Origin: Psychrobacter maritimus
Lineage (GTDB): Bacteria > Pseudomonadota > Gammaproteobacteria > Pseudomonadales > Moraxellaceae
Reading direction: 5' to 3'
Assembly (NCBI RefSeq): GCF_904846345.1
Contig: NZ_CAJHAJ010000010.1
Span: 1-64,000, forward strand
DNA length: 64,000 nucleotides
The stretch's first letter is position 1, and the number at the start of each line of letters is the position of its first letter. Both the position numbers and the translations under genes were made by a program. The notes under the pieces are model-generated. The model was not told where the DNA came from, searched no databases, and saw nothing but the letters and a program-made list of their open reading frames with translations. Shown piece by piece: positions 5,722 through 52,651 of the stretch.

Positions 5722-6639
5722 TTAATAATAACGCTTGATTTCTCTTTCCAAAAAGTCGGCGGCGACCTCATTGACGATGGTGCAATCAACCACGCTACGA
5801 AAGCTATTGGTGTTCGGATTGCTACTGCCTTTGGCAACATAATCGGCTTCGTAGATGCCCCTATCATATTCAACGCCGTTATATTGATAAGCAGGTTGGT
5901 TTTTATAGGCAAAAAACGTCACCTGTGCCGCGTGTTGTTTATTGTCCGCTCCAACCCCAAACTTAGAAGTACTATAACCTCTGTTATCATCAAATCTTGC
6001 TTCAGCGGCGTTAATCCACTTATCCAATGCTGAATAACCGGTTTTGTCTTTTTCATTAAATGCTAAAAACGCGCGCTCGCTTGTAACGACTGGAATATAA
6101 CAAACGGAGCCGGCTGGAAATGCCAACGTCGCTGGAATTTTAGGATAATGGTTTAAGCTCGTAATGATGCCGCGACTGTTGCTTATCGTATTCCCTGCAA
6201 GATAACTGTCCGCTTTTACACCTGATAAATCTAAAGTTTTATAGGTGATTTCATAGCTAGACTTGTTATTGGTGTTTTTCTCATAAATAGGACGTTTGAC
6301 CGTGCGACCATTCACCTCAATATTCTTATTTTCCAGTCGCCCTTCAAAGTTATTTGCCAATATCGTTTTATCTAAGGTGTTTAGACTCTGATTACTATAA
6401 TTATTGACAAGATTTTTTATTTTAATCTCGCGCGCGCCTGTGCGGTAGCTCTCATCAATACGTGCAATCGCCGTAGCGTTTACTTGGCTGTCATAGCTAT
6501 TAGCAAAGCTGGTCAATGTAATGTTATTACTGCCACCCGAGCCATAAATACCGTTATCTTCTTCGCAACCGACAAGAGCAATCATCATTAAAGATAAAAT
6601 ACTTGGTATTACAATTAGTTTCTTCATTGACCCGTTCAT
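5722..6639 (-). CDS. Putative lipoprotein, unknown function
   Basis: About 305 residues. The N-terminus MNGSMKKLIVIPSILSLMM ends in a lipobox (ALVGC/EED), so signal peptidase II processing to an Asp/Glu-rich N-terminus is expected. The mature part begins with a Gly/Ser/Asn stretch and is rich in Asn, Ser and Tyr. I see no recognisable enzyme motif. It has only two other Cys residues (VCYIPV and VDCTIV), which could form a disulfide. The ATG at 6639 has an AAGGA site nine bases upstream; a TTG one codon earlier and an internal ATG (MKKL, 6627) are alternatives. It lies divergent from ohr. Lipoprotein status is fairly sure, function unassigned. Confidence 0.7.
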   Translation of the reverse strand: MNGSMKKLIVIPSILSLMMIALVGCEEDNGIYGSGGSNNITLTSFANSYDSQVNATAIARIDESYRTGAREIKIKNLVNNYSNQSLNTLDKTILANNFEGRLENKNIEVNGRTVKRPIYEKNTNNKSSYEITYKTLDLSGVKADSYLAGNTISNSRGIITSLNHYPKIPATLAFPAGSVCYIPVVTSERAFLAFNEKDKTGYSALDKWINAAEARFDDNRGYSTSKFGVGADNKQHAAQVTFFAYKNQPAYQYNGVEYDRGIYEADYVAKGSSNPNTNSFRSVVDCTIVNEVAADFLEREIKRYY

Positions 6640-6792
6640 CAAATAACGTCCTTATAGCTCTGTTTTTGCCATCTATGCTGATGGGTTTACTATGACCATT
6701 TATACAATGAGTTTACATTAACACATTCATGATTTATATATCAAAATGCTTCGATTATCGCTAACCTGACAGACATGATACATTTACCCACT

Positions 6793-7638: not shown

Positions 7639-10593
7639 ATGACTGCCAACGACCACAACTCGCACTCGCCCATTAATCCCAATACGCTACCAAACTTTGC
7701 CTCCATGCCAAATGTGGCGACGATGGATACCAGTCATGTGGACAAAAACCAGCCGCCCTTTATTTTGGTCGATGGCTCTTACTATCTGTTTCGCACTTAT
7801 CATGCCTTACCAAAGACCATGCAAAACTCTCAAGGCCTGATAACCAACGCCATACGTGGGACGTTGAATGCGCTACTGAAATTAATGCGCCGCTATCACC
7901 CAACCCATATGGCGGTCTGCTTTGATACCAAATCACCGACTTTTCGTCATGCGATGTCAGATGAATATAAAGCCAATCGTCCAAAAATGGATGTGGAATT
8001 GGCTGAGCAAATTCCGTATATCCACAGCTTGGTCGCCGCTCTAGGAATCCCCTTACTCCGTATCGAAGGCGCAGAAGCCGATGATATTATTGGTACCCTC
8101 GCTTATCGTGCCGTCGCTGAAGGTCATCACGTGGTCATCTCCACGGGTGATAAAGACATGATGCAGCTGATTAATGACTGCGTGATATTAGAAGACAGCT
8201 TTACCGGTAAAATTACCGATAGCGCAGGCGTGGTCGAAAAATTCGGTATCAATCCTGAGCAGATGATTGACTTTTTGACCCTGATGGGTGATTCCTCTGA
8301 CGGCATCAAAGGCGTGCCGGGTATCGGCAAAAAGACGGCCAAAGACTTGCTTAATGAGTATGGCAGTATCGACAATATGCTCAAAAACGTCGCTGATATC
8401 AAAGGACGCGCAGGCAAAAACCTGGTCGAATATGCTGATGACATTCCGATGAATGCACAGCTGGCAACCATCGTTACCGATTTAGAAATTGGCCAAGACT
8501 GGCAAGATTTAAAAATTAATACCGACCCATGCGCTCATATCGATGAGCTACGCGCGCTATATACTGAGCTTGAGTTTAGAAACGAGTTGGCCTCACTGGA
8601 TCACCCCAATCATCCAGCCAATGGTTCACAAAGTGTCGCCAATAGTCAGGCTGATGCGGAATCACAAGCACAAATCGCTAAATCCTTACAGTCAAGCACA
8701 ATCGACAATATCACCGACAGTAAAAGTCATGATAGAGCATGGCATACGATTTTAGATGAGGCCGCTTTTGATAGCTTAGTTAAACTATTAGCAGACGCAC
8801 CGCACTTCGTTATCGATACCGAAACCACCAGCGTTTATTGGCGTCAGGCTGAATTGGTTGGTTTGTCTTTTGCGGTAAAAGCGCACGAAGCCTATTATGT
8901 ACCGCTCACGCATAATCTAGAAGGCGATGAGCTGACTGCAAAGCAACTTGATCGCGATACGGTATTAGCAAAACTTAAACCTATCTTAGAAAATCCAAAC
9001 ATCGGTAAAATCGGTCAACATCTCAAATATGATGCCCATATTCTCAGTCATTATGATATCGACTTAGTAGGCAGCATTCATGCCAGCCCTAATAACTGGG
9101 CAATGGATACCATGCTTGCCAGCTATGTGATTAACGCGGCAGCTACTCGCCACGGTATGGACGATTTGGCGCGCCATTACCTACAAACACAAACCATCAG
9201 CTTTGAAGATGTGGCTGGTAAAGGCGCTAAGCAAGTTAGCTTTGACCAAGTCGCCATCGATATTGCCAGCGACTATGCTTGCGAAGATGCCGATATTACT
9301 TATCAGCTGTTTGACTTGTTTAGCGAAAAATTAGCAGCTGACGACAATAACGCTAAGTTGCTACACGAATTAGAGATTCCAACTGCAGAGATACTCTGCC
9401 AAATGGAAGCAAGCGGTATTTTAATTAAGCGCCCATTCTTAAATGAGCTATCAAAGCGTTTTGATGAAGAAATCATTGCGCTTGAAAAACGTGCTTATGA
9501 AATCGCTGGCGAAGAATTTAATCTCGGCTCACCAAAACAGCTTGGTGAGATGCTGTTTGATAAGCTTGGCGTGTCTGGTGGTAAAAAAACCAAGTCAGGG
9601 CAATACTCTACGGGTGAAGGGGTATTATCAAAGATTGACCACCCATTGGTCGATATCACCCTTGAATATCGCGGTCTGTCTAAGCTCAAAAGTACTTATA
9701 CCGATGCGCTTGATAATGTTGCAGATGCGCAGACTGACCGCGTGCATACCAGCTATCACCAAGCACTAACCAGTACCGGTCGTCTGTCATCAACTGATCC
9801 CAACTTACAAAACATTCCTATTCGTACTGCCACTGGCCGCCTAATTCGTCAAGCCTTTATCGCGCCAGAAGGTCGCGTTATTCTGGCCGCGGATTACTCA
9901 CAAATTGAATTACGTTTAATGGCGCATTTCTCAGGTGATAAAAACCTAACGCATGCTTTTAATGAAGGGCTGGATATTCACGCGGCCACCGCAGCTGAAG
10001 TGCTTGGCAAAGATGTTACTGATGTCACCCCGACCGAGCGCCGTAATGCCAAAGCCATTAACTTTGGTCTACTCTATGGTATGAGCGCTTTTGGTCTTGC
10101 CAAGCAGCTACAAATGAGCCGCAGTGAGGCGCAAGACTATATCGATATGTACTTTAAGCGCTATCCGGGCGTCAAAGACTATATGATCAATACTCGTGCC
10201 AGCGCCCATGACAAAGGCTATGTCGAGACCATATTAGGTCGTAAGCTTTATACACCTGATATCAGCCATAGCAATCGCATGGTCAAACAAGGCGCTGAAC
10301 GTGCGGCGATTAACGCGCCACTACAAGGTTCGGCAGCTGACTTGATTAAACTTGCCATGATTGCTGTTGATAAAGTGTTGCCAAAAGAGCAAGCCAAAAT
10401 GCTGCTACAGGTCCATGATGAGCTGGTGTTTGAAGTCGATAGCGACAAGGTCGATGAAATCAGCAAGCTTATTACTGATGCCATGCAAGACGTCTTAACT
10501 AACACTGCTGTTGAAAAAGGTTGGCAGGTAGATTTTGCTGTACCCTTATTGGTTGAAACAGATAGTGGTCAGAACTGGGATGAAGCGCATTAA
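7639..10593 (+). CDS. polA: DNA polymerase I
   Basis: 984 residues. Pol I fills gaps and removes RNA primers in replication and repair. All three domains are visible. The 5'-nuclease domain (about 38-325) begins ILVDGSYYLFRTYHALP and carries EGAEADDIIGT and GVPGIGKKTA. The 3'-5' proofreading domain (about 375-580) keeps DTETTSVYW, so it looks active. In the polymerase domain motif A is DYSQIELRLMAHF (near 750), motif B RRNAKAINFGLLYG (near 805) and motif C QVHDELVFEV (near 925). Two departures from the E. coli protein: about 37 extra N-terminal residues, and a Ser/Gln/Asn-rich linker at about 325-360. Downstream starts (for example at MPNVATM) cannot be excluded. The gene stands alone. Confidence 0.97.
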   Translation: MTANDHNSHSPINPNTLPNFASMPNVATMDTSHVDKNQPPFILVDGSYYLFRTYHALPKTMQNSQGLITNAIRGTLNALLKLMRRYHPTHMAVCFDTKSPTFRHAMSDEYKANRPKMDVELAEQIPYIHSLVAALGIPLLRIEGAEADDIIGTLAYRAVAEGHHVVISTGDKDMMQLINDCVILEDSFTGKITDSAGVVEKFGINPEQMIDFLTLMGDSSDGIKGVPGIGKKTAKDLLNEYGSIDNMLKNVADIKGRAGKNLVEYADDIPMNAQLATIVTDLEIGQDWQDLKINTDPCAHIDELRALYTELEFRNELASLDHPNHPANGSQSVANSQADAESQAQIAKSLQSSTIDNITDSKSHDRAWHTILDEAAFDSLVKLLADAPHFVIDTETTSVYWRQAELVGLSFAVKAHEAYYVPLTHNLEGDELTAKQLDRDTVLAKLKPILENPNIGKIGQHLKYDAHILSHYDIDLVGSIHASPNNWAMDTMLASYVINAAATRHGMDDLARHYLQTQTISFEDVAGKGAKQVSFDQVAIDIASDYACEDADITYQLFDLFSEKLAADDNNAKLLHELEIPTAEILCQMEASGILIKRPFLNELSKRFDEEIIALEKRAYEIAGEEFNLGSPKQLGEMLFDKLGVSGGKKTKSGQYSTGEGVLSKIDHPLVDITLEYRGLSKLKSTYTDALDNVADAQTDRVHTSYHQALTSTGRLSSTDPNLQNIPIRTATGRLIRQAFIAPEGRVILAADYSQIELRLMAHFSGDKNLTHAFNEGLDIHAATAAEVLGKDVTDVTPTERRNAKAINFGLLYGMSAFGLAKQLQMSRSEAQDYIDMYFKRYPGVKDYMINTRASAHDKGYVETILGRKLYTPDISHSNRMVKQGAERAAINAPLQGSAADLIKLAMIAVDKVLPKEQAKMLLQVHDELVFEVDSDKVDEISKLITDAMQDVLTNTAVEKGWQVDFAVPLLVETDSGQNWDEAH

Positions 10594-10778
10594 TCGTGCA
10601 AACAAAGGCAGTTATAATGGCTTTTAATACTGCTATTAATGCTTCTATTAATGCAGCTAAAAATGGTAATTGAACACTGGCGTTTATACTCTGCCATAGC
10701 TGTGCAATGACTCTTAGCAGTATAATAAGCACACGTTACTTTTATATATATTAATTTTTAACATATTAATGACGGTTT

Positions 10779-10805
10779 AAAGTGAGCCTGTGCGCTCACT
10801 TTTTT
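10779..10805 (+). terminator. Terminator after polA
   Basis: AAAGTGAGC (10779-10787) pairs with GCTCACTTT (10794-10802) across CTGTGC, with T residues continuing to 10805. It lies about 190 bp downstream of polA and just before the next gene; no other structure is seen in between. Confidence 0.7.
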
Positions 10806-10832
10806 CATTTTTGAAAACTAGGAAGCTTTATT

Positions 10833-11369
10833 TTGATTGCAGATGGCATCATCGAATTACCGGGTATTATCATATTAATCGCGTGCATATTACGCTGCGT
10901 TCAGTATGTGATACAGAGTGAGCTGAAACTGGGGCACTATTTTTGGTTGGCATCTGTATTGACATTTTTTGCTGTGATTCGTCGTGAGTTGAACTATGTG
11001 CCCGAGCTCTTGATTCCTAGTGGTTTTACATTTATGAATCACTCGTACGATTGGTGGGAAGACGCTGTGCTGTTAACGGTGTATCTGCTGATTGTGGGCT
11101 TATTAGCTTATAGTTGGCGTTATCTGTGGATGGTATTAAAAAAAGTTCCTGTGTCACTATATATCACTGTGGTTGCCTTAGCACTATTAGAATATATGGG
11201 TGAAAATGCCATTTTTATACCAGAAAGCATTGGCGAGATAGTAGAAGAAATCGCAGAGACCGGCGTTTATACGATTGCCTTGATTTATTTATGGACATTT
11301 AAACTCGGTGAGTTTGAGAGACATTTTTTACCTCAAAAAAATTATCATGCACCGTGCAAAGCCAACTAA
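10833..11369 (+). CDS. Small integral membrane protein, unknown function
   Basis: 178 residues with about five hydrophobic helices: roughly 8-27, 36-50, 75-96, 103-120 and 138-156. Between helices 4 and 5 a conserved-looking acidic stretch (ENAIFIPESIGEIVEEIAE) faces one side, and tryptophans cluster at YDWWEDA. I recognise no named family. Translation appears to start at TTG (10833-10835), because AGGAAG lies seven bases upstream at 10820-10825 and no in-frame ATG precedes helix 1. It is a single gene between two terminators. Confidence 0.7.
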   Translation: MIADGIIELPGIIILIACILRCVQYVIQSELKLGHYFWLASVLTFFAVIRRELNYVPELLIPSGFTFMNHSYDWWEDAVLLTVYLLIVGLLAYSWRYLWMVLKKVPVSLYITVVALALLEYMGENAIFIPESIGEIVEEIAETGVYTIALIYLWTFKLGEFERHFLPQKNYHAPCKAN

Positions 11370-41191: not shown

Positions 41192-41217
41192 AAAAACGAC
41201 GTCTAAACGTCGTTTTT
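41192..41217. terminator. Terminator downstream of the CheX/CheY/kinase operon
   Basis: AAAAACGACGT (41192-41202) pairs with ACGTCGTTTTT (41207-41217) around CTAA. The A-run gives a U-tract on the minus strand, 52 bp after the last operon gene. Confidence 0.85.
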
Positions 41218-41268: not shown

Positions 41269-41718
41269 CTAAGCGATAGAAATACCGATAACAGCCTTAT
41301 AGCCGCGCCATGTAAAGGGTGTGACATAACTTTGGCGGTCTTTTGGCAGATAAGGAATGCTCGGTATACCTTCAATAATCTTGGGCGGTGAGATAATAAA
41401 ATCGGCACCAAACTCAGTGCGGGCGTTACCTGAGATGGTATTTGCCATCTCACCCAATAAGTCTTTCATCATCGTAATAGAGGAGTCAGGCTCACCCATT
41501 ACTGTGATTATTTCCCGCAAAATATTGCTCGGGGCGCTGACATACACGCAGCCTTCAAGCGGTCCAGAGATTGTAATCATACCGCTATAATCATAACCCA
41601 CGGCATTTTTATTACTGTTTAAATACGGCGTATCAATCACCACTGGCTCATCATCAATCTGCGCGAAAAACGCACTGATTGAGCTTAAAAAGACGCCTAA
41701 CTTGTCTACATTAACCAT
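41269..41718 (-). CDS. CheX-like phosphatase, copy 1
   Basis: 149 residues. CheC/CheX/FliY-type fold; CheX dephosphorylates CheY-P. The phosphatase helix motif ExxN is present as Glu90-Asn93 in DLLGEMANTISGNARTEFG, and the GxxxxSGNA context matches CheX. Last gene of a five-gene minus-strand operon and paralogous to the next gene upstream (43-bp gap). In a genus not known to swim, its target is more likely the neighbouring stand-alone receiver than a flagellar CheY. Which copy is active on it cannot be judged. Confidence 0.82.
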   Translation of the reverse strand: MVNVDKLGVFLSSISAFFAQIDDEPVVIDTPYLNSNKNAVGYDYSGMITISGPLEGCVYVSAPSNILREIITVMGEPDSSITMMKDLLGEMANTISGNARTEFGADFIISPPKIIEGIPSIPYLPKDRQSYVTPFTWRGYKAVIGISIA

Positions 41719-41761
41719 AATAGTTTATCGTCCATATCGATCATCATTGGGGGGGTTGGAT

Positions 41762-42211
41762 TTAGTCTTGCAAACAAACCACAATCTCCCCAATTTGACC
41801 TCGCCAGCTGACTGGAATGATAAAAGAACGCCCATTTTTAGGCAAAATAATGCTTTGCGGTGAGCCTTTGAACACCAATGGTACAGAGATATGAAACTCT
41901 GCGCCAAACTCGTTGCGGGCATTACCAGATACGGTGTTAGCGACCTCTCCTGCCAAATCGACCAAATTGTCTTCGCTCTTATCGGTTTCACCCATACTGT
42001 CTAGGATACTGGCCAATAACGCGCTGGTGGCAGAAAAATAAACCACGCCTTTTTGTACCCCTGAGATACCGATGACACCTGTATAATCATGCACTTTAGG
42101 CTGCTGATTTTCTAGTAAATAAGGGGTATCAACAATCAGCTCTTCAGTACCAAACTGATTAAAGTAATTGGTAATGATACTCACAAAAATTTGTAACTTT
42201 TGCTCTTTCAT
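41762..42211 (-). CDS. CheX-like phosphatase, copy 2
   Basis: 149 residues, the same length and layout as copy 1. Shared landmarks are VDTPYL near residue 28, a DYTGVIGISG strand and the phosphatase helix DLAGEVANTVSGNARNEFG (Glu89-Asn92). The two copies are clearly paralogues but have diverged across most positions, so the duplication is old. Upstream neighbour is the CheY-like gene (55-bp gap). Two phosphatases for one receiver would allow separate inputs or a heterodimer; this is inference. Confidence 0.82.
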   Translation of the reverse strand: MKEQKLQIFVSIITNYFNQFGTEELIVDTPYLLENQQPKVHDYTGVIGISGVQKGVVYFSATSALLASILDSMGETDKSEDNLVDLAGEVANTVSGNARNEFGAEFHISVPLVFKGSPQSIILPKNGRSFIIPVSWRGQIGEIVVCLQD

Positions 42212-42266
42212 AATGTGTGTTCTTTAATAAGATATTTACTTAATTTATTAGGGCGTGTCCTAACGG

Positions 42267-42629
42267 CTAGTCTTGGACAAGCTCATACAAAGACTCTACC
42301 AGCTCTTCTTCTGAAAAAGGCTTGCATAAGAAACCGCTCGCACCCAATGATAATGCTTCAATGCCAGTCGATTTATCAGACAACGCCGATACCACTAAAA
42401 TCCGCACTTCAGGGTCAATCGCAATGATTTTTGCAATACATTCAAGTCCATCCATTTGTGGCATGGTTAAATCCATGGTCACCACGTCAGGACGATGGAT
42501 ATTGAATTTCTCGACGGCTTGGACACCGCTGGTTGCCGTAGCAACCAACATAAACTGACCAGAATCATAAGCGCGCTGAATACGGTTTCGAATGATATTT
42601 GAATCATCCACAATCATTAATTTGTACAT
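42267..42629 (-). CDS. Single-domain CheY-like response regulator
   Basis: 120 residues, a receiver domain only. Acidic pocket Asp8/Asp9 (IVDDSN), phosphoacceptor Asp53 (VVTMDLTMPQMDG), conserved Ser81 (VVSALSD) and Lys103 (FLCKPF). No DNA-binding or enzymatic output domain follows, so the phospho-form must act by binding a protein. The kinase stop lies 20 bp upstream, which supports co-translation in one operon. The most likely partners are the CheA-like kinase and the two CheX-like phosphatases; the final target is not in the window. Confidence 0.93.
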   Translation of the reverse strand: MYKLMIVDDSNIIRNRIQRAYDSGQFMLVATATSGVQAVEKFNIHRPDVVTMDLTMPQMDGLECIAKIIAIDPEVRILVVSALSDKSTGIEALSLGASGFLCKPFSEEELVESLYELVQD

Positions 42630-42649
42630 AGTTTCTTTATTGTCCTTAA

Positions 42650-44851
42650 TTACGCAGCAGGCAAGGTAATGACAAAACGGGTCATTTTTCCAAGCTCAGT
42701 ATTAACGTTAAGCTTACCGTTGTGCTCTTTGACTAACGCCTTGATGACGTCTAAGCCCACACCGCGACCGCCATCTTCATCGGCTTGTTCTTTGGTTGAG
42801 AAACCAGAAGCAAACAAGGTTTTGAGCAGATCACCATGAGTCATCTGACTTGCCTCTTCTGCACCAAAGCGACCATCGGCAATCAGCTTATGACGAATAC
42901 CTTCATAGTCGATACCTTGACCGTCATCTTGCAAGGCGATGATTAAGTTTTGATTATCACGCTGCATCTCTAAGTCAATACTACCGATTGCAGACTTACC
43001 TGCTGACTGACGCGCTTCAGGTGATTCGATACCATGTACCACCGCATTACGTAACAACTGAATACTGATCTCTTTGATCGGTTGTTTGAGGCGTTCAGGG
43101 ATGTTTATATGTGCTAAATTATGGCCGTTTAGCTGTACTTGTTTGCCTTGTCTTACCGCAATATCTTTGGCAAAATCTTGATAATAAGATAAATACTCGT
43201 CATCTGACTCATCACTCAAATCAACTTCACTACCGCCATCGAAATTTATGCTAGTGGTAGCAACATCTGCTACTTGGGCTTGGCCAATGCTTGGTTGTGG
43301 CGCAGTCTTTATTGGCGCTACAGGGTTTGTACTACTGGGAGCTTTTGGCGCTGCCTGATTAATGCGTTCACCTAGCGTCTCAATGGTGTTCGAGAGGCTG
43401 AGTAAGTCATCCAAATGGACCGCTAGCGGCAAGAAGTTATTGCCCGATAGCTTGCCCTGATTTTGCAATGCATCAAGCTTGTCTTCCGCGTCTGACGCAA
43501 TTTTAGTGAAGCTATGCAGTTTTAGTGCTGATGCTTCGCCTTTTAAGCTGTGCATTTCGCGATAAATCGCATTAAGCTTACCTTCAAGCTCAAATTGCGA
43601 GCTACCAGGGTTTTTCAAAATATTGTTCATTTTATCGATATGAGCTTTGGTGTTATTAATAAACTCATTAATGATTTTTGGATTGACGTTTAAGATGGTG
43701 GTCAACATCTCAATTTGCATGTCATTTTGCGAACGCTCTTTTTCTAAGCGCTGTTCTAGATAAACGGCATCTGATACGTCATTAACGTTGACCAGAATGC
43801 GTGCAATGTCTTTATCTTCATAAACACGTGAAAACTTAAAGTCTAGGAAGCGGCTCGTGGTGCTCTCTTCGCCAGATGCATTGTGTAGCATAACTTTATG
43901 CAATGGGTTTAAAGAATCAACCAATTTTTCTTTAACGCGTGGGTTATACAATTGCTCGATAAACTGACGTGTGGTTTTCAGATCTTTGTCTGAAATACGA
44001 CCGCGTAGTACATCGGCAAAGTTCTCTCCTGCCAGTCTTTCTTCACCAATAATGCCATTTAAGGCTCGAGAATGCTGCTGACCAATATTCAAATCTTTAT
44101 CTAACAAGAATAGACCCGTATTGACGGTTTCCATGATTTCTTGTGTTTCGCGGCGAGCAGCCAATGCTTCCGCATCGGTATCACGCAAACGGCGTACAAA
44201 GAAGAATACGAAGATTAGGAAGTAAGCAAAAATAGCCGCAACACCTAATATCTGAATCAGACGTATGGTGTCTGCTTGGCGTTCTGCGTTGATAAACACT
44301 TCATTGGTAAGCTGGTCTAACGAATCGTTTATCAGGAGGCTTGAGGTTTTTGCCTGTTCAACCGCTTGAATCAATTCATCAGATGAATCGACCATGATGT
44401 TATCAGCGTCTTTTAGATAATTTTGAATCTTAGGCTCTAAAAGTAACCACTGCTCATTCGCCGCAGCAACGTTGGTTTGAGAGTTATTATTAATTTTCGG
44501 TAAATTATAGCTTTTGCCATCGACATCGGTAATTTCACCACCTTGTTCAATGGCAGTGATAGAGCTAGTAATAAGCGATGTATTTTGCTCCAAACGCTCT
44601 AATACTCTTTGGATATGCGGCGAGTTGGTGTCTTCACCGTAACTGCTATCTAAGTCAAATAAGTCTTTAATTACCGCTTGCGCGCTATTGGCGACTTGGT
44701 TGGTTCGATCAATTAAAACCGTGTTTCTTTCAAGCAAGCTTGAGGTATAAAAAGTAAACGCCAGCAAAGCGCCAATCAGCGATAAAAACAGTGCAATTGA
44801 AATAATCAGACTGTGATAGCGTTTATTGTCAGTATTATAGGTGGTTGCCAT
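42650..44851 (-). CDS. Membrane-anchored CheA-type histidine kinase without CheW-binding domain
   Basis: 733 residues. TM1 (about 14-36), a helical periplasmic part (about 37-197), TM2 (about 198-220), then a PAS-like region (about 235-370). An HPt domain follows with His434 in REMHSLKGEASALKL. After a Pro/Ala/Thr-rich linker comes a CheA-type HATPase: LLRNAVVHGIESPEARQSAGK, DDGQGID, LFASGFSTKEQ and GGRGVGLDVIKAL. The chain ends right after this domain, so the CheA P5 domain that docks CheW and receptors is missing, and no REC is attached. It therefore combines a two-TM sensor with CheA-style catalysis. Signalling is expected to run to the adjacent CheY-like protein. Follows the binding-protein gene by 12 bp. 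Confidence 0.9.
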   Translation of the reverse strand: MATTYNTDNKRYHSLIISIALFLSLIGALLAFTFYTSSLLERNTVLIDRTNQVANSAQAVIKDLFDLDSSYGEDTNSPHIQRVLERLEQNTSLITSSITAIEQGGEITDVDGKSYNLPKINNNSQTNVAAANEQWLLLEPKIQNYLKDADNIMVDSSDELIQAVEQAKTSSLLINDSLDQLTNEVFINAERQADTIRLIQILGVAAIFAYFLIFVFFFVRRLRDTDAEALAARRETQEIMETVNTGLFLLDKDLNIGQQHSRALNGIIGEERLAGENFADVLRGRISDKDLKTTRQFIEQLYNPRVKEKLVDSLNPLHKVMLHNASGEESTTSRFLDFKFSRVYEDKDIARILVNVNDVSDAVYLEQRLEKERSQNDMQIEMLTTILNVNPKIINEFINNTKAHIDKMNNILKNPGSSQFELEGKLNAIYREMHSLKGEASALKLHSFTKIASDAEDKLDALQNQGKLSGNNFLPLAVHLDDLLSLSNTIETLGERINQAAPKAPSSTNPVAPIKTAPQPSIGQAQVADVATTSINFDGGSEVDLSDESDDEYLSYYQDFAKDIAVRQGKQVQLNGHNLAHINIPERLKQPIKEISIQLLRNAVVHGIESPEARQSAGKSAIGSIDLEMQRDNQNLIIALQDDGQGIDYEGIRHKLIADGRFGAEEASQMTHGDLLKTLFASGFSTKEQADEDGGRGVGLDVIKALVKEHNGKLNVNTELGKMTRFVITLPAA

Positions 44852-44863
44852 CTTCAGTATTCC

Positions 44864-45736
44864 TTAATTCGTTTGCTGATTATTTGAAGTACTTTTGGTC
44901 GCAGGCTCAGTCGCACCTAGCCATTTTTCTTCAATTTCTTTAAATGTACCTTTTGCTTTTAGCTTGGTAATACCTTCGTTTACGCTCTTTATGAGCTTGG
45001 TATTTTCTTTTGCCATTAAAACGACCTGCTGTGCTGAAGGAGCATCTGCTGCTTCATAAGGTACAATCTTAACTTTATGTTCTGGATAACCTTTTATAAT
45101 GTATTGTAAAACTGGCATGTCATATAAGAACACATCAGTATTACCTTGAACTAAGTCCTGATAAGCCAAAAATGCAGTAGATCTTGAAACCAGTTCAACT
45201 GAACTGCCCATCTCTTTTAGAGTATCTTCTTCTTTAGAACCTTCTAGCGTACCTGTTTTTAGACCTTTGATATCGTTTAAATCTTTGATATCAAACTTTC
45301 CTTCCAAGTACATAATAGTAGCTGGATTAAAAAAGTAAGGCGTTGATAGACCATATCTAACTGCACGATCATCTTTATAAGAAATACCAGAAATAGCTAA
45401 ATCACGTTTTCCCGATTCCACGCTATCAAACATGTCCTGCCACGTTTCTTTATAGAACTCGACTTTAAAGCCTTGCTCTTCCCCAATGGCTCTAATCGAA
45501 TCAACATCAGTGCCTTGCATGTTGCCATAATCATCTTGAAATGAGAAAGGCGGTAAATCACCAGTCATCGCCACCTTTAATGTTGGTGCTGTATCAGGAA
45601 GTTTACTTACAAAATTGTCTTTATGTTCCGTTACTGTTGTACCAGATGCACTAGCATTATCTTGGGTAGAAGAATTTCCACATCCAAATAAGCCGACACT
45701 CAATATAACTGGTAACACTCGATATAATAGCTTCAT
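44864..45736 (-). CDS. Periplasmic amino-acid-type solute-binding lipoprotein
   Basis: 290 residues. Lipobox LSVGLFGC/GNSS (Cys about 19) marks a lipoprotein. The rest is a family-3 solute-binding fold: LKVAMTGDLPPFSFQDDYGNMQGTD at the start of lobe 1, DSVESGKRDLAISGISYKDDRA, and a C-terminal lobe ending IEEKWLG. No ABC permease or ATPase gene is nearby. Instead it is the first gene of an operon with a CheA-type kinase (12-bp gap), so it more likely senses a ligand for that kinase than feeds a transporter. AAGGAT lies upstream of the ATG. Confidence 0.9.
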   Translation of the reverse strand: MKLLYRVLPVILSVGLFGCGNSSTQDNASASGTTVTEHKDNFVSKLPDTAPTLKVAMTGDLPPFSFQDDYGNMQGTDVDSIRAIGEEQGFKVEFYKETWQDMFDSVESGKRDLAISGISYKDDRAVRYGLSTPYFFNPATIMYLEGKFDIKDLNDIKGLKTGTLEGSKEEDTLKEMGSSVELVSRSTAFLAYQDLVQGNTDVFLYDMPVLQYIIKGYPEHKVKIVPYEAADAPSAQQVVLMAKENTKLIKSVNEGITKLKAKGTFKEIEEKWLGATEPATKSTSNNQQTN

Positions 45737-48667: not shown

Positions 48668-51600
48668 TTAAATCATTTTCCATGTCATATCATTTTCACT
48701 TAAGCGGTGATAATTAAGCTGCGGATAAGCCGATAAATCCAGTGTTTGTAAGTTATTTAACGCGGTCAATAGTGCTTCATAATAAGGCTCGAGCATCGCA
48801 AATTGAGCGGGCGTGGTATGTTGGATATTTAATAAGCATTTATCCTCTAAATCTTGGCTGGCTTGCCGTAACTGCGGCACGCCCGTATAGCGACTGCCGC
48901 CTAAGATACGATGGGCAATTTGCGCAAGCGCACTGCGGTTGCGACTCTCCCATGCCTGCATCAACGCTTGCTTTTCATCATTAATGGTATCGAGCATCAT
49001 AATAATCAGCTTGGCAGCCAAATCGGGTTTATTGGCTGAACGCGTCAACGCATCTTGCCAATTTAAAATCTCCGAGGTATCAAGGGCGTTTGCGCCCAAG
49101 TTCGTATTACTTTGCCCTTGCGTTGTCTCTACAGTTTGCTCATCTTTAGCACTCTCTGTCATTTGATAGGGCGGATAAACCAATGGTGCTTGCCCCTGCC
49201 CTTGATAGCGCAAATTCTCATAGCGTGGCTTTTCATAGCGTGGCTTCTCGTAACGTGGTTGGGTTTCGCGCGGTGTTTCGCGTCTATAATCTTCACGCGG
49301 CTGACTGTCGCGCAAATAGTCGTCACGGATTTTTTTGAGCGATAAAGGTCGGGTGATTTTTGCTGGACTCATCGCGTCAGCATCTCTATGAGAATCAGCA
49401 TCGTGATGACTATCATCCCCTTTAACCATTGGATAAGTCGGCGCTGTCAGACCTGTATACGCCGTTAAAGAATCTTGCGTTAATGTATTGTTAAAATTAG
49501 AACTTGGTAAATCCGAGCTGGGCGAATTTTCAGCGTGTAAATCATCATTAGTAAGGGCGGTTATTGGCGGCACTGAAGTGGTACGACCAAGCCATTTTTG
49601 TAGCACTTGTAATAATTGTGGCTGGCTAATAGGCTTACCGACATAATCATTCATACCGCTAGCAATCAGCTTCTCGCGCTCATCAGCTAAGCCATGAGCG
49701 GTCAAAGCAATAATGGGAATATGATGATCAGGGGTTTCGATATTACGGATTTGCCGCGCCGCTTCATGCCCTGACATACGCGGCATTTGAATGTCCATAA
49801 ATATCAAATCAATGCTGTTTTTGTGCGCTGCATTGCCTTTATCATCTGTCGTAGCATCGTCAAGATGTAATGAGTTAACCGCTGATTTACTGACATCATC
49901 GCGGGCTTCAGCTTTAGATATTTGGGTCTTTTTCGACAGACTTTGTTTTTCAGTTTTAGCGGTTTTGATATGTTTGGTTTGCTGTTTACTGATGATTTCT
50001 ATCGCATCAAAACCACTACTGGCGGTAATCACATGGATACCAAGCTCACTTAATAGCGCATCAAGCACCAGTAAGTTTGGTAGATGATCGTCGACGGCTA
50101 AGACGGTAACGCCTTTCCAGCGCGGCTCTTGAACGCCACTCGGAGCGCTGCGCTTTTGCGTATCAAGCATCGCATAGAGCTGTCTTTTATCCAATGGCTC
50201 ATACAAAATATTGGCATGATAACGATTAAGCAGCGCTTGGTCGGCGGCAACTTGATAGCCAAATACTGCCAGCTTACCCTGATAATGCAGGCGAATTTGT
50301 TTGAGTAGCGCCATCATATCGTCTTGGGTGTCATCATCCACGATGACCCAATCCCAATAGTTGCCGCGCTCTTTGAGCGACTCAAGTACGCCCGGTAAAG
50401 AGTTTGCTTGGGTCAGGGTAATCGGTAAATGTTGTAAGCTGGCTTTCAGCACCTGTATCGATGCCGTATGATTGATCCAAACCAGCACATTAAACTCGTC
50501 TGTATCGCTGGCAAGTGGCGCGAGCACGGGCAGTTCAATCGTTTGCCCAGTCGCCGCTTCTAAAACATCGACATGGGCTGGCATCCGAAACCAAAACGTT
50601 GCCCCTTGGTTAGAGATGTTTTCTTGCACATTGTCATAAAAACCAATATCGCCGCCCATCAGCCGCGTTAGCTGCTTGGAGATGACCAGACCCAAGCCGG
50701 TACCACCATATTGACGCGTAATCGACGGATCGCCTTGGCTAAAGCTTTGAAAGAGCATTTTTTGGTCAGATAATGAAATCCCTTTACCGCTATCTTGCAC
50801 GCTAATCATTAAGTAATTGTCACGATGATCGTCTAAGCTAACGCGAACGACCACATCGCCGCTATCGGTGAATTTAATGGCATTACCGACGATATTGGTC
50901 AGTACTTGTTTAAGACGCAGGGCATCGCCGTTGATGCGCATCGGCACGTCGTTATAAAACAACACCGCCATGCGCAGCCCTTTTTCTGCAGAAACCGGCG
51001 ATAGCATATCGACGACATCATAAATGGTGTCATAAAGGTCAAACTCGTGACGATCAAGTACAAGCTTGCCCGCTTCAATCTTAGAGAAATCCAATACGTC
51101 ATTCACGAGTGCCAATAAATGCGCCGACGATTTACGGATGGTTTGCACGTACAAATCTTGTTCAGGATTAAGCTCGCCATGACGTGCCAGCAAATTAATA
51201 AAACCATCGATACTGTTTAAGGGCGTACGCAATTCATGACTGATATTGGCCAAAAATGCCGATTTTGCTTGGCTGGTTGAGATTGCCGCATCACGGGCAT
51301 TACGGATAGAGATATTTTGCATTTCCATCTCATCAAATGCCAAGCGCAAATCATCCTCGGTTTGCTCGGCATGGTCTTTTAAATCTTGGAAGCTAGCATG
51401 TAGACGACGTAAAGTCTTGACCAAATCTTGCTGTAATAAATTCAACTCACCATTCGATTCAACCGGAATAGGCTGATAAAGATTGTCTACATGGGTACGT
51501 TGTAATTGCAAACGCAGCTCGTAAATCGGCGCAATCCAACGTTTTGAATAGATATTTAAGCTTAATAACAAAATTAAAATGGTAAATAAGCCAGTAATCG

Positions 51601-52189
51601 CCAGCGCCATGGCAATACGATAACGGGCAATATAAAGCGGCTCGTTATCCATATCGACCATCAGCCACACTTGCTGCCCGTCAAACTCACCCAAGGTACT
51701 GCCGTAAGCTGTGCCAATAGGCGTGGGCTTTTGCGATAAAAAGCGCTCTGATGCATCTATCAGTGGCCATGCCTCATCGATACCATAGCCGACACTGGCC
51801 AGTACTTCATTGTTTTGATTGATAATGGCAATACGTTGGACATGCTGCTCCGACTGCATGCGCCCGAGCCTATCTTGAATACCTTCTAACGTCGCTATCG
51901 CTGCTTGTGACTTAGTATCTGTTTTGCTTTTACCGTCGCCTGTTTCTGTTTGCTGCTTTTCTTGCTGCTTTTCTTGCTCTAATAGTTCAGGGACGAGCTC
52001 CGCAATCGCCGGCGTATAACGAATCAGCACCGCCTCTGCCAATACTTCTTGTTCAGAATTACTGGCGCGCATGGTTTCATAAAACACCAAAATGCCACCC
52101 ACCGCTGCCAATAAACAAATCGGCAAAAACACCAATATAATCAGCTGACCATAAGCACTACTGGTATCAAAACGTTTTTTGTAAGCCAT
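48668..52189 (-). CDS. gacS: BarA/GacS hybrid histidine kinase
   Basis: 1173 residues. TM1 (about 14-36), a periplasmic sensor (to about 190), TM2 (about 192-213) and a HAMP-like linker. Then HisKA with SHELRTPLNS (His about 317), HATPase (NIVGNAIKF, DSGKGIS, GGTGLGL), a divergent receiver (about 520-640), a full receiver (about 700-870) with FMDIQMPRMSG, and a C-terminal HPt (AHRILGGSRYTG, His about 1090). GacS/BarA signals to GacA/UvrY and Rsm RNAs. The position just before cysM matches Pseudomonas. Odd points: about 55 extra residues inside the receiver between its second helix and third strand, and a repetitive RYEKPRYEKPRYENLRY linker. ATG at 52189 has GGAGAG upstream. Confidence 0.9.
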   Translation of the reverse strand: MAYKKRFDTSSAYGQLIILVFLPICLLAAVGGILVFYETMRASNSEQEVLAEAVLIRYTPAIAELVPELLEQEKQQEKQQTETGDGKSKTDTKSQAAIATLEGIQDRLGRMQSEQHVQRIAIINQNNEVLASVGYGIDEAWPLIDASERFLSQKPTPIGTAYGSTLGEFDGQQVWLMVDMDNEPLYIARYRIAMALAITGLFTILILLLSLNIYSKRWIAPIYELRLQLQRTHVDNLYQPIPVESNGELNLLQQDLVKTLRRLHASFQDLKDHAEQTEDDLRLAFDEMEMQNISIRNARDAAISTSQAKSAFLANISHELRTPLNSIDGFINLLARHGELNPEQDLYVQTIRKSSAHLLALVNDVLDFSKIEAGKLVLDRHEFDLYDTIYDVVDMLSPVSAEKGLRMAVLFYNDVPMRINGDALRLKQVLTNIVGNAIKFTDSGDVVVRVSLDDHRDNYLMISVQDSGKGISLSDQKMLFQSFSQGDPSITRQYGGTGLGLVISKQLTRLMGGDIGFYDNVQENISNQGATFWFRMPAHVDVLEAATGQTIELPVLAPLASDTDEFNVLVWINHTASIQVLKASLQHLPITLTQANSLPGVLESLKERGNYWDWVIVDDDTQDDMMALLKQIRLHYQGKLAVFGYQVAADQALLNRYHANILYEPLDKRQLYAMLDTQKRSAPSGVQEPRWKGVTVLAVDDHLPNLLVLDALLSELGIHVITASSGFDAIEIISKQQTKHIKTAKTEKQSLSKKTQISKAEARDDVSKSAVNSLHLDDATTDDKGNAAHKNSIDLIFMDIQMPRMSGHEAARQIRNIETPDHHIPIIALTAHGLADEREKLIASGMNDYVGKPISQPQLLQVLQKWLGRTTSVPPITALTNDDLHAENSPSSDLPSSNFNNTLTQDSLTAYTGLTAPTYPMVKGDDSHHDADSHRDADAMSPAKITRPLSLKKIRDDYLRDSQPREDYRRETPRETQPRYEKPRYEKPRYENLRYQGQGQAPLVYPPYQMTESAKDEQTVETTQGQSNTNLGANALDTSEILNWQDALTRSANKPDLAAKLIIMMLDTINDEKQALMQAWESRNRSALAQIAHRILGGSRYTGVPQLRQASQDLEDKCLLNIQHTTPAQFAMLEPYYEALLTALNNLQTLDLSAYPQLNYHRLSENDMTWKMI

Positions 52190-52651
52190 GCTGGGTTTAC
52201 TCTCCACTGATATTGGTGACAGATATTATTGATGATAAATATTGTACGATGCGCCTATGTGTTAATAATTGGCTAAGCACTAACGGCAAGCCAGCAATTA
52301 TAACTTGAGATTATCTTAGCAGGATTCTATCAAAGGCAGTTAGCCATTCATTGACTCATCTTCATTAACCAATGCTTATTAAGCAAGCGTTATTGCTCAA
52401 CAAGTCGCGCCTAATATTTATGCTTAATAACTTATACATTAATGTAAATACACAAGGTTATAAACAAATAAGCTATCCTCAATAAAAATTTATGCATTAA
52501 GCGCAGCTGAAAACAAAATGATATAATGACGCAACTTTTTATTGCGTCACCCTCAATACCTGATAGTCATGAAGTACTGGCCTGTTAATGTCTTAGTACC
52601 TATCATTTAAACAGCGCCTATTAAAAACTTAATAATTAATAAGGATACCTT
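52190..52651. other. Divergent spacer between gacS and cysM
   Basis: 462 bp without a gene. The cysM promoter candidate and hairpin at 52522-52549 are listed separately. Elsewhere there is a small TGCTTATTAAGCA palindrome near 52373-52385. Confidence 0.4.
52522..52549 (+). promoter_or_regulatory. cysM -10 box and adjoining inverted repeat
   Basis: TATAAT at 52522-52527 overlaps the first base of a perfect 8-bp inverted repeat TGACGCAA (52527-52534)/TTGCGTCA (52542-52549), loop CTTTTTA. The -35 is weak (TTAAGC at 52497-52502, 19-bp spacer). The repeat would lie at the transcription start, as an operator or as a 5'-end hairpin. Confidence 0.4.

Follow-up and report, generated by a model that had tools for sequence, protein, structure and literature searches.

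A probable ligand-operated receptor kinase with an exchangeable sensory end, encoded with a CheY-like receiver and two CheX proteins in Psychrobacter maritimus

Two described systems come closest to the operon considered here, a set of five minus-strand genes in a 64,000-nucleotide stretch of the Psychrobacter maritimus genome (RefSeq assembly GCF_904846345.1, contig NZ_CAJHAJ010000010.1, positions 1 to 64,000; hereafter the window), which encodes a lipoprotein of the solute-binding protein (SBP) type, a transmembrane kinase, a single-domain receiver and two CheX paralogues. In XylFII-LytS the periplasmic domain of a sensor kinase, a four-helix bundle, is the docking site of a binding protein, and in GlnH-GlnX-PknG of Corynebacterium glutamicum the presumed target of an SBP_bac_3 lipoprotein is a membrane protein that has four-helix bundles in the periplasm (both as set out in part of PMC9769921). 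With XylFII-LytS the operon would share the placing of an SBP on a kinase four-helix bundle (PDB titles 5xsj and 5xsd), but its SBP is of the SBP_bac_3 family and its kinase has a histidine phosphotransfer (Hpt) domain and a CheA-type HATPase, together with a lone receiver and CheX. It resembles GlnH-GlnX in combining an SBP_bac_3 lipoprotein with a four-helix-bundle membrane partner, whereas the output of that system runs via the protein kinase PknG. GlnX is not a histidine kinase; XylFII, which we take to come from Clostridium beijerinckii and to be of the Peripla_BP_4 fold, finds a likeness in a class of Moraxella paralogues (P3, below) that uses a Peripla_BP_4 lipoprotein.

The other relatives are chemosensory. 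The kinase is like CheA in its Hpt and HATPase domains and unlike it in having a transmembrane sensor of its own; the receiver and CheX recall the flagellar CheX/CheY pair, the CheX proteins keeping the ExxN motif and the receiver being nearest to CheY (1tmy) among solved structures, but here there are two CheX paralogues in an operon lacking CheW and receptor, in a genome with no flagellin match. No described system with this gene set was recognised in the open-licence PMC literature; all the parts belong to known families and SBP-driven kinases are known, whereas neither the combination nor the swapping of matched input cassettes on a single engine turned up in searches of that literature. 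Comparison of related loci makes it probable that the operon encodes a ligand-operated receptor kinase, in which an exchangeable input end, made of the SBP and the sensor domain, is joined to a constant kinase core, receiver and CheX.

The solute-binding protein and the sensor domain vary as a unit

The sensory end was compared between loci with nearly identical cores (L and G numbers are our handles for loci and genomes). Four locus pairs had a median core-DNA identity of 92-100% (median of short windows) as against 31-55% in the sensor, and their SBP was different or missing: L096/L033 (core residues 99%, core DNA 97%, sensor DNA 55%), L099/L039 (core DNA 98%, sensor 55%), L100/L052 (92% and 35%) and L046/L058 (100% and 31%). 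Of 15 comparisons, which are not independent and nine of which have cores only 70-78% identical at the protein level, 14 showed the return of identity at residue 180-240 of the kinase and the other at residue 270. Between SBP-coupled sensors the return point was at residue 180-195 (n = 7), and toward the SBP-free sensor it was at 220-240 (n = 7) or 270 (n = 1). The far edge of the change lay inside the SBP gene in L096 and ahead of it in L100. SBP and sensor were presumably replaced by recombination.

A sample of 97 kinases with open reading frames (ORFs) longer than 640 aa (the window and 96 loci) was clustered by periplasmic domain, giving a class P1 of 75 kinases at a 45% threshold and 76 at 40%; the sample omits the broken L044, L117 and L120, uses one of the two kinases of L118, and contains L045, which stands at a contig end and does not belong to the Mantel set below. 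An SBP_bac_3 gene was found upstream of 70 of the 76 class P1 kinases and of none of class P2 (n = 0/8), while a Peripla_BP_4 lipoprotein, identified by Pfam in four cases, preceded all five kinases of class P3. The remaining eight kinases had neither type of SBP upstream, with the status of L019 uncertain because its locus is cut by a contig end. Six P1 kinases had no adjacent SBP, one at a contig end and five others; four of the five P1 genomes concerned hold unlinked SBP relatives scoring at least 163 bits. Nothing of this type above 86 bits or above 29% identity was found in the P2 genomes (n = 8/8) or in the genomes lacking the kinase (n = 21/21).

The divergence of the two proteins followed the same pattern. 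The nearest SBP was at least 55% like that of the window in 58 loci, with sensors 65-100% identical to the window's, and more distant in 11 loci, with sensors 38-57% identical, so that the two ranges did not overlap. With the divergence of the kinase core (residues 224-500) controlled, SBP and sensor divergence remained strongly associated (partial Mantel r = 0.888, 69 loci including the window), none of 2000 permutations reaching this value, a count that is not a strict probability, as the loci are related to one another. By comparison of loci, the SBP is thus shown to be tied genetically to the kinase sensor, both varying as a unit, with core, receiver and CheX as a second, constant unit. 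An earlier note on this DNA had proposed that the lipoprotein presents a ligand to the periplasmic part of the kinase, a role supported by the joint exchange, by presence and absence among genomes, and by the SBP of unrelated fold that precedes paralogous kinases at the corresponding position.

Two or three tandem SBP genes were seen upstream of one kinase in seven loci (L069, L072, L077, L083, L091, L094 and L103); they may be alternative inputs or intermediates of a swap. A Peripla_BP_4-type lipoprotein gene precedes the paralogous kinases of L122, L123, L127, L128, L118 and L275, which mostly lack an adjoining CheX; in L275 (Rappaport israeli) this lipoprotein gene, identified by eye, is in two ORFs.

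The receptor kinase and its partners

The kinase has two transmembrane segments, at about residues 13-34 and 195-217, and residues 1-222 were modelled as four helices, of which the first and last run on into these segments, forming a four-helix bundle (predicted local distance difference test, pLDDT, 87.9). In the AlphaFold2 model of all 733 residues (mean pLDDT 68.5), residues 391-500 form a helical Hpt and 551-733 the HATPase, where the chain ends; the linker 501-551 is of very low confidence, with no helix or strand up to 550, and a lone helix (551-567) precedes the HATPase. The HATPase residues N602, D642-D643-G644-x-G646 and G695-R696-G697-V698-G699 were invariant in 34 aligned kinases. 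Pfam at E 0.1 detected neither an H-kinase_dim (P3) nor a CheW (P5) domain in the kinase. The earlier description held for the two transmembrane segments, the Hpt with His434, the CheA-type HATPase and the missing P5, while the PAS domain was not confirmed: Pfam gave no PAS match in the kinase, a PDB search with a profile of the region brought up no PAS structure, the best hits being mostly CheA and aligning with the Hpt part, and pLDDT there was about 30-60.

According to part of PMC10782961, all surveyed CheA members have P1, P3, P4 and P5 and no sensor domain. By this definition the present kinase, with a P1 Hpt and a P4 HATPase, is not a CheA, because it spans the membrane, has its own sensor, and P3 and P5 were not found; its catalytic and Hpt parts are CheA-like. 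The term chemotaxis-derived, used in the earlier note, is fair for the catalytic core, the receiver and CheX, the kinase as a whole being no CheA.

Both CheX proteins, 44% identical to each other, combine a Pfam CheX match above cut-off with the ExxN motif; they scored 26.6 and 27.3 bits against the NCBIfam equivalog CheX_Thtogales, by its name a model for Thermotogales, far from its cut-off of 280. The E and N of the motif were kept in all family CheX of at least 140 aa (n = 173/173, shorter fragments excluded) and in 16 of 18 distant ones, and residues D8, D9, D53, S81 and K103 in all receivers of 110-170 aa (n = 114/114). The best-scoring solved sequence for the receiver was 1tmy, a CheY presumably of Thermotoga origin. 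In a double module of L199, two CheX homologues (6242-6691 and 10400-10900) have Ser in place of the catalytic Asn and may not be phosphatases.

The lipoprotein joins SBP_bac_3 by its profile match and by Arg124 and Asp206, near-invariant in 69 loci, which in amino-acid SBPs would contact the alpha-carboxylate and the alpha-amino group of the ligand. Its nearest solved structures are mostly amino-acid binding proteins, and the ligand is probably an alpha-amino acid or a solute with an alpha-amino-acid moiety. The residue after the lipid Cys, where Asp bears on sorting between inner and outer membrane, is not Asp in 73 of 75 SBPs; the lipoprotein may sit in either membrane.

A candidate docking site was looked for among 39 aligned sensors, spanning both SBP classes and some Moraxella sensors that lack an SBP next to them. 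Residues D66, S70, G72, E73, S77, P78 and H79 were invariant, and invariant residues made up 11 of 30 in the membrane-distal part 58-87, 8 of 36 in 135-170 and none of 47 in the membrane-proximal part 88-134, with 1 of 23 in the lower part of the first helix and 3 of 24 in that of the last. By the topology of the model, loop 70-77 lies at the apex of the bundle, and we propose that the sensor apex is perhaps where the SBP makes contact. Many SBP-activated kinases are said to be encoded beside an sbp gene (PMC11113362, in part).

In the mechanism that we propose, one membrane protein would do the combined work of chemoreceptor, CheW and CheA. The lipoprotein would bind a small solute and dock on the periplasmic four-helix bundle, perhaps at its apex; from there the second transmembrane segment and the cytoplasmic region would relay the signal to the CheA-type ATPase, which would phosphorylate His434 of the Hpt. 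As the conserved residues suggest, the phosphate would then move from His434 to Asp53 of the lone receiver, from which CheX1 and CheX2 would strip it, the phospho-receiver meanwhile acting on some non-flagellar target, possibly one of those named in the earlier note (twitching, surface attachment, cyclic-di-GMP or metabolism), which these data neither favour nor contradict. SBP and sensor domain would be exchanged together, the chromosomal location of the operon staying the same. On balance we lean towards a broader reading, that of a plug-in sensory slot outside chemoreceptor arrays, in which a constant receptor-kinase/CheY/CheX engine receives cassettes swapped by recombination (SBP_bac_3 with a matching bundle; in the paralogues, Peripla_BP_4 with a bundle of another kind; or a sensor with no SBP), so that related strains would hear different ligands and the kinase would stand for a distinct class of CheA-type receptor kinases. 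The many natural chimeras, in which SBP and sensor change and the rest is constant, make SBP-to-kinase recognition and ligand switching directly testable. The operon also suggests CheA chemistry in a receptor that dispenses with CheW, P3 and P5, which bears on how chemosensory systems are assembled or dismantled.

Conservation, genomic setting and competing explanations

The kinase was present at E 1e-30 in 96 of 299 genomes of the family, 82 of the same genus (its own included) and 14 of other genera; genomes are called kinase-less where they are among the 20 listed without a match in this search, which scored three candidates per genome (G013 on the basis of the first search). The order SBP, kinase, receiver, CheX1, CheX2 was conserved in 67 of 79 same-genus loci, in 62 of these between a major facilitator superfamily (MFS) gene and rpsB, and the succession from kinase to rpsB was retained in 75 of the 79, which excludes the lack of conservation that would have told against the cluster as first described. 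Among 21 kinase-less Psychrobacter genomes, the MFS gene adjoined rpsB without the operon in 10, one had a CheX remnant, and 10 had no MFS gene within 1.5 kb; because of this MFS-rpsB junction, the operon seems to have come or gone in one piece, at least in certain lineages. The kinase gene of L044 (8823-10644), also in Psychrobacter, is interrupted near residue 577, where an inserted element carries transposase-like frames that look to us like IS200/IS605, and its SBP gene is in two ORFs.

A profile of kinase residues 224-500 matched at E 1e-12 in 24 of 293 genomes of the order and 14 of 369 of the class (own genome included). Matches of at least 200 bits include nine genomes in the order but outside the family, and 11 genomes from elsewhere in the class. 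The loci compared cover the strong matches beyond the family apart from three (G411 and one each in G833 and G928), and none of the weaker ones of 95 bits or less. Of 24 distant kinases in 23 loci (22 loci beyond the family, and L131, which belongs to another genus within it), 22 had both a receiver and a CheX close by in the same orientation, the exceptions being L019, cut by a contig end, and L203, with neither. The succession of kinase, CheY-like receiver and CheX is an old module. Among genes neighbouring the distant loci, no common partner other than receiver and CheX was seen; in single cases a fusion of a receiver with a Ser/Thr protein kinase domain (L195:10613-11857) or a TonB_C protein (L193) comes after the module.

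The source genome (3.18 Mb) has named relatives in Psychrobacter, the nearest 100% identical over kinase residues 224-500. CheW domains were found genome-wide in a stand-alone CheW and in the ChpA frame only. The stand-alone CheW, the ChpA-type CheA and the only methyl-accepting chemotaxis protein share one Pil-Chp cluster with its own receivers (PilG, PilH, PilI, PilJ, PilK, ChpA and ChpB, named by reading of the translations), no CheX was found in the genome other than the two of the operon, and flagellin had no match. The absence of receptor and CheW noted earlier is thus true of the operon, and no second chemotaxis set that might use its proteins was found; gene content suggests that Chp does not use them. 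The Chp receptor PilJ (G000:C1 588711-590150, L136:9712-11151) is a short form of some 480 codons; it has two hydrophobic helices side by side and, by eye, lacks a periplasmic sensor part. A published oddity may have its explanation here: cheY and cheX were reported in 16 of the Psychrobacter strains of a 2016 genome study, with other chemotaxis and flagellar genes absent, as given in part of PMC4754876, and the operon is the probable source of both genes.

Since the SBP and sensor genes are adjacent, one recombination tract could carry both without a functional tie, and the genome-wide data answer this in part. In such hitch-hiking the SBP would be an ordinary or moonlighting scavenger that travels with its neighbour at a variable site; the 12 bp between the SBP and kinase genes, the contiguity of the divergent tracts and the tandem SBP genes of seven loci would fit. 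That the SBP is missing from P2 and kinase-less genomes, has unlinked relatives in four of the five P1 genomes that lack an adjacent one, is replaced by an unrelated fold ahead of another sensor class (n = 5/5), and that identity so regularly returns near the second transmembrane segment, all speak against it. An ATP-binding cassette (ABC) ATPase signature was likewise found within 7-13 kb of none of 13 unlinked SBP genes scoring at least 139 bits (11 loci, five genomes including G122), as against all three control loci, whose SBPs are more distant, the test being a short text pattern and two of the controls looking like the same gene in two species. What was found is an SBP tied to one sensor class and without an ABC partner, as in an SBP-dependent sensor kinase, and we regard hitch-hiking as improbable. 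A different output is more open to debate: the operon could be an input branch of Pil-Chp, with the receiver or CheX acting on PilG/PilH, ChpA or pilus motors. The genome's PilJ, read as lacking a periplasmic sensor part, and the PilJ-type sensors (PF13675) on two distant relatives of the kinase, L131 and L019, lend this some appeal, but Chp has its own kinase and receivers, the operon's receiver is just 32% identical to PilG and 27% to PilH, and a neighbourhood common to both was not observed. Of seven kinase-less genomes of the genus in the first search, six keep a CheA-type ATPase match in a very long frame (ChpA by reading), which indicates that Chp does not need the operon, and such a branch seems rather unlikely.

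Control of a polarity switch by the kinase family is suggested by same-strand clusters of kinase and receiver genes with a roadblock (MglB-like) and a small GTPase (MglA-like) gene beside Moraxella paralogues (L123, L124, L126 and L129; Robl_LC7 by Pfam in L123). These are four loci of one genus with paralogous kinases, and the roadblock gene found no match at E 1e-8 in 7 of the 11 genomes searched, that of the window among them; the search contradicts such an output as a general rule covering the window, for which it is very improbable, and it could hold for the Moraxella paralogues only. Hardly credible is a decayed chemotaxis remnant devoid of function. Broken copies do exist, with the insertion in L044 and fragmented kinases in L117 and L120, and the operon is gone from between the MFS gene and rpsB in 11 of 21 kinase-less genomes (one with the CheX remnant); against this stand the catalytic residues invariant throughout the 114 receivers and 173 CheX, the keeping of both CheX paralogues, and the five genes in order in 67 loci, one of them with a broken kinase.

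Several observations weigh against a ligand-operated receptor kinase whose SBP and sensor are exchanged together. The SBP alters without the sensor, as in L034 and L035, which differ mainly in the SBP, and within class S1, where 25 and 33 loci differ at 31 SBP sites, including 60, 76, 163, 203 and 205. These five sites are presumably near the ligand pocket, to judge from related proteins, and SBP-only variation would be consistent with a change of ligand while the docking surface stays the same. In the P1 genome G086, without an adjacent SBP, the best relative elsewhere reaches 103 bits and 30% identity. The cytoplasmic region that would pass on the signal contains TGLFLLDKDLNIG, which looks PAS-like to us, and a PAS domain there stays unconfirmed. 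For the proposed docking site, the invariant apex also occurs in Moraxella sensors that have no adjacent SBP, the XylFII-LytS contact is on helices H3 and H4 and is not described as apical in that part of PMC9769921, and for a kinase of another organism the SBPs encoded in its vicinity showed no binding to the sensor domain in vitro (in part of PMC11113362). The fold of the sensor is not taken as proof of kinship with PilJ or LytS: Foldseek gave no match at E 0.001, and the structural matches, headed by PilJ (7zjr, Z 14.7, root-mean-square deviation 3.3, 137 residues aligned) and followed by Vc1313 (14.2), XylFII-LytSN (13.4) and QseE (12.2), lie at the helical-bundle background of Z 12-15, designed bundles scoring similarly; the window's sensor has no Pfam match to PF13675.

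Operon layout and neighbouring features

The five ORFs span 41269-45736 with intergenic gaps of 12, 20, 55 and 43 bp, and on re-reading of the sequence the genes, coordinates, gaps, His434, Asp53 and both ExxN motifs were all as first described (Table 1). Pfam scores exceeded the cut-off for every domain: SBP_bac_3 115.5 bits, Hpt 28.9, HATPase_c 56.2, Response_reg 98, and CheX 74.3 and 71.7.

Table 1. Features of the operon and of the encoded kinase, in window coordinates.
Feature	Position	Strand	Basis
Lipoprotein SBP (SBP_bac_3), 290 aa, lipid Cys19	44864..45736	-	Pfam, ORF
Transmembrane receptor kinase, 733 aa: first transmembrane segment, periplasmic four-helix bundle, second transmembrane segment, cytoplasmic region, Hpt, linker, CheA-type HATPase	42650..44851	-	
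Kinase periplasmic sensor domain, residues 35-193, differing between strains along with the SBP	44273..44749	-	
Apical loop region of sensor bundle, residues 66-79, DLDSSYGEDTNSPH, candidate SBP docking site	44615..44656	-	
Cytoplasmic region termed PAS in the earlier note, residues 224-368, fold unconfirmed	43748..44182	-	
Hpt domain, residues 393-497, His434 in HSLKG the predicted phosphate-accepting residue	43361..43675	-	
CheA-type HATPase, residues 553-733	42653..43195	-	
Single-domain receiver, Asp53	42267..42629	-	Pfam Response_reg
CheX paralogue 1, E89xxN92	41762..42211	-	Pfam CheX
CheX paralogue 2, E90xxN93	41269..41718	-	Pfam CheX
Hairpin and T run just past the operon, possible transcription terminator	41192..41217	-	T run read from minus-strand sequence

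The terminator scan placed the hairpin at 41192..41217 on the plus strand, and terminator-like sites were no more numerous than in shuffled sequences. Three genes upstream of the operon, at 48668-52207, an ORF encodes a hybrid histidine kinase of 1179 aa, GacS/BarA-like by eye.

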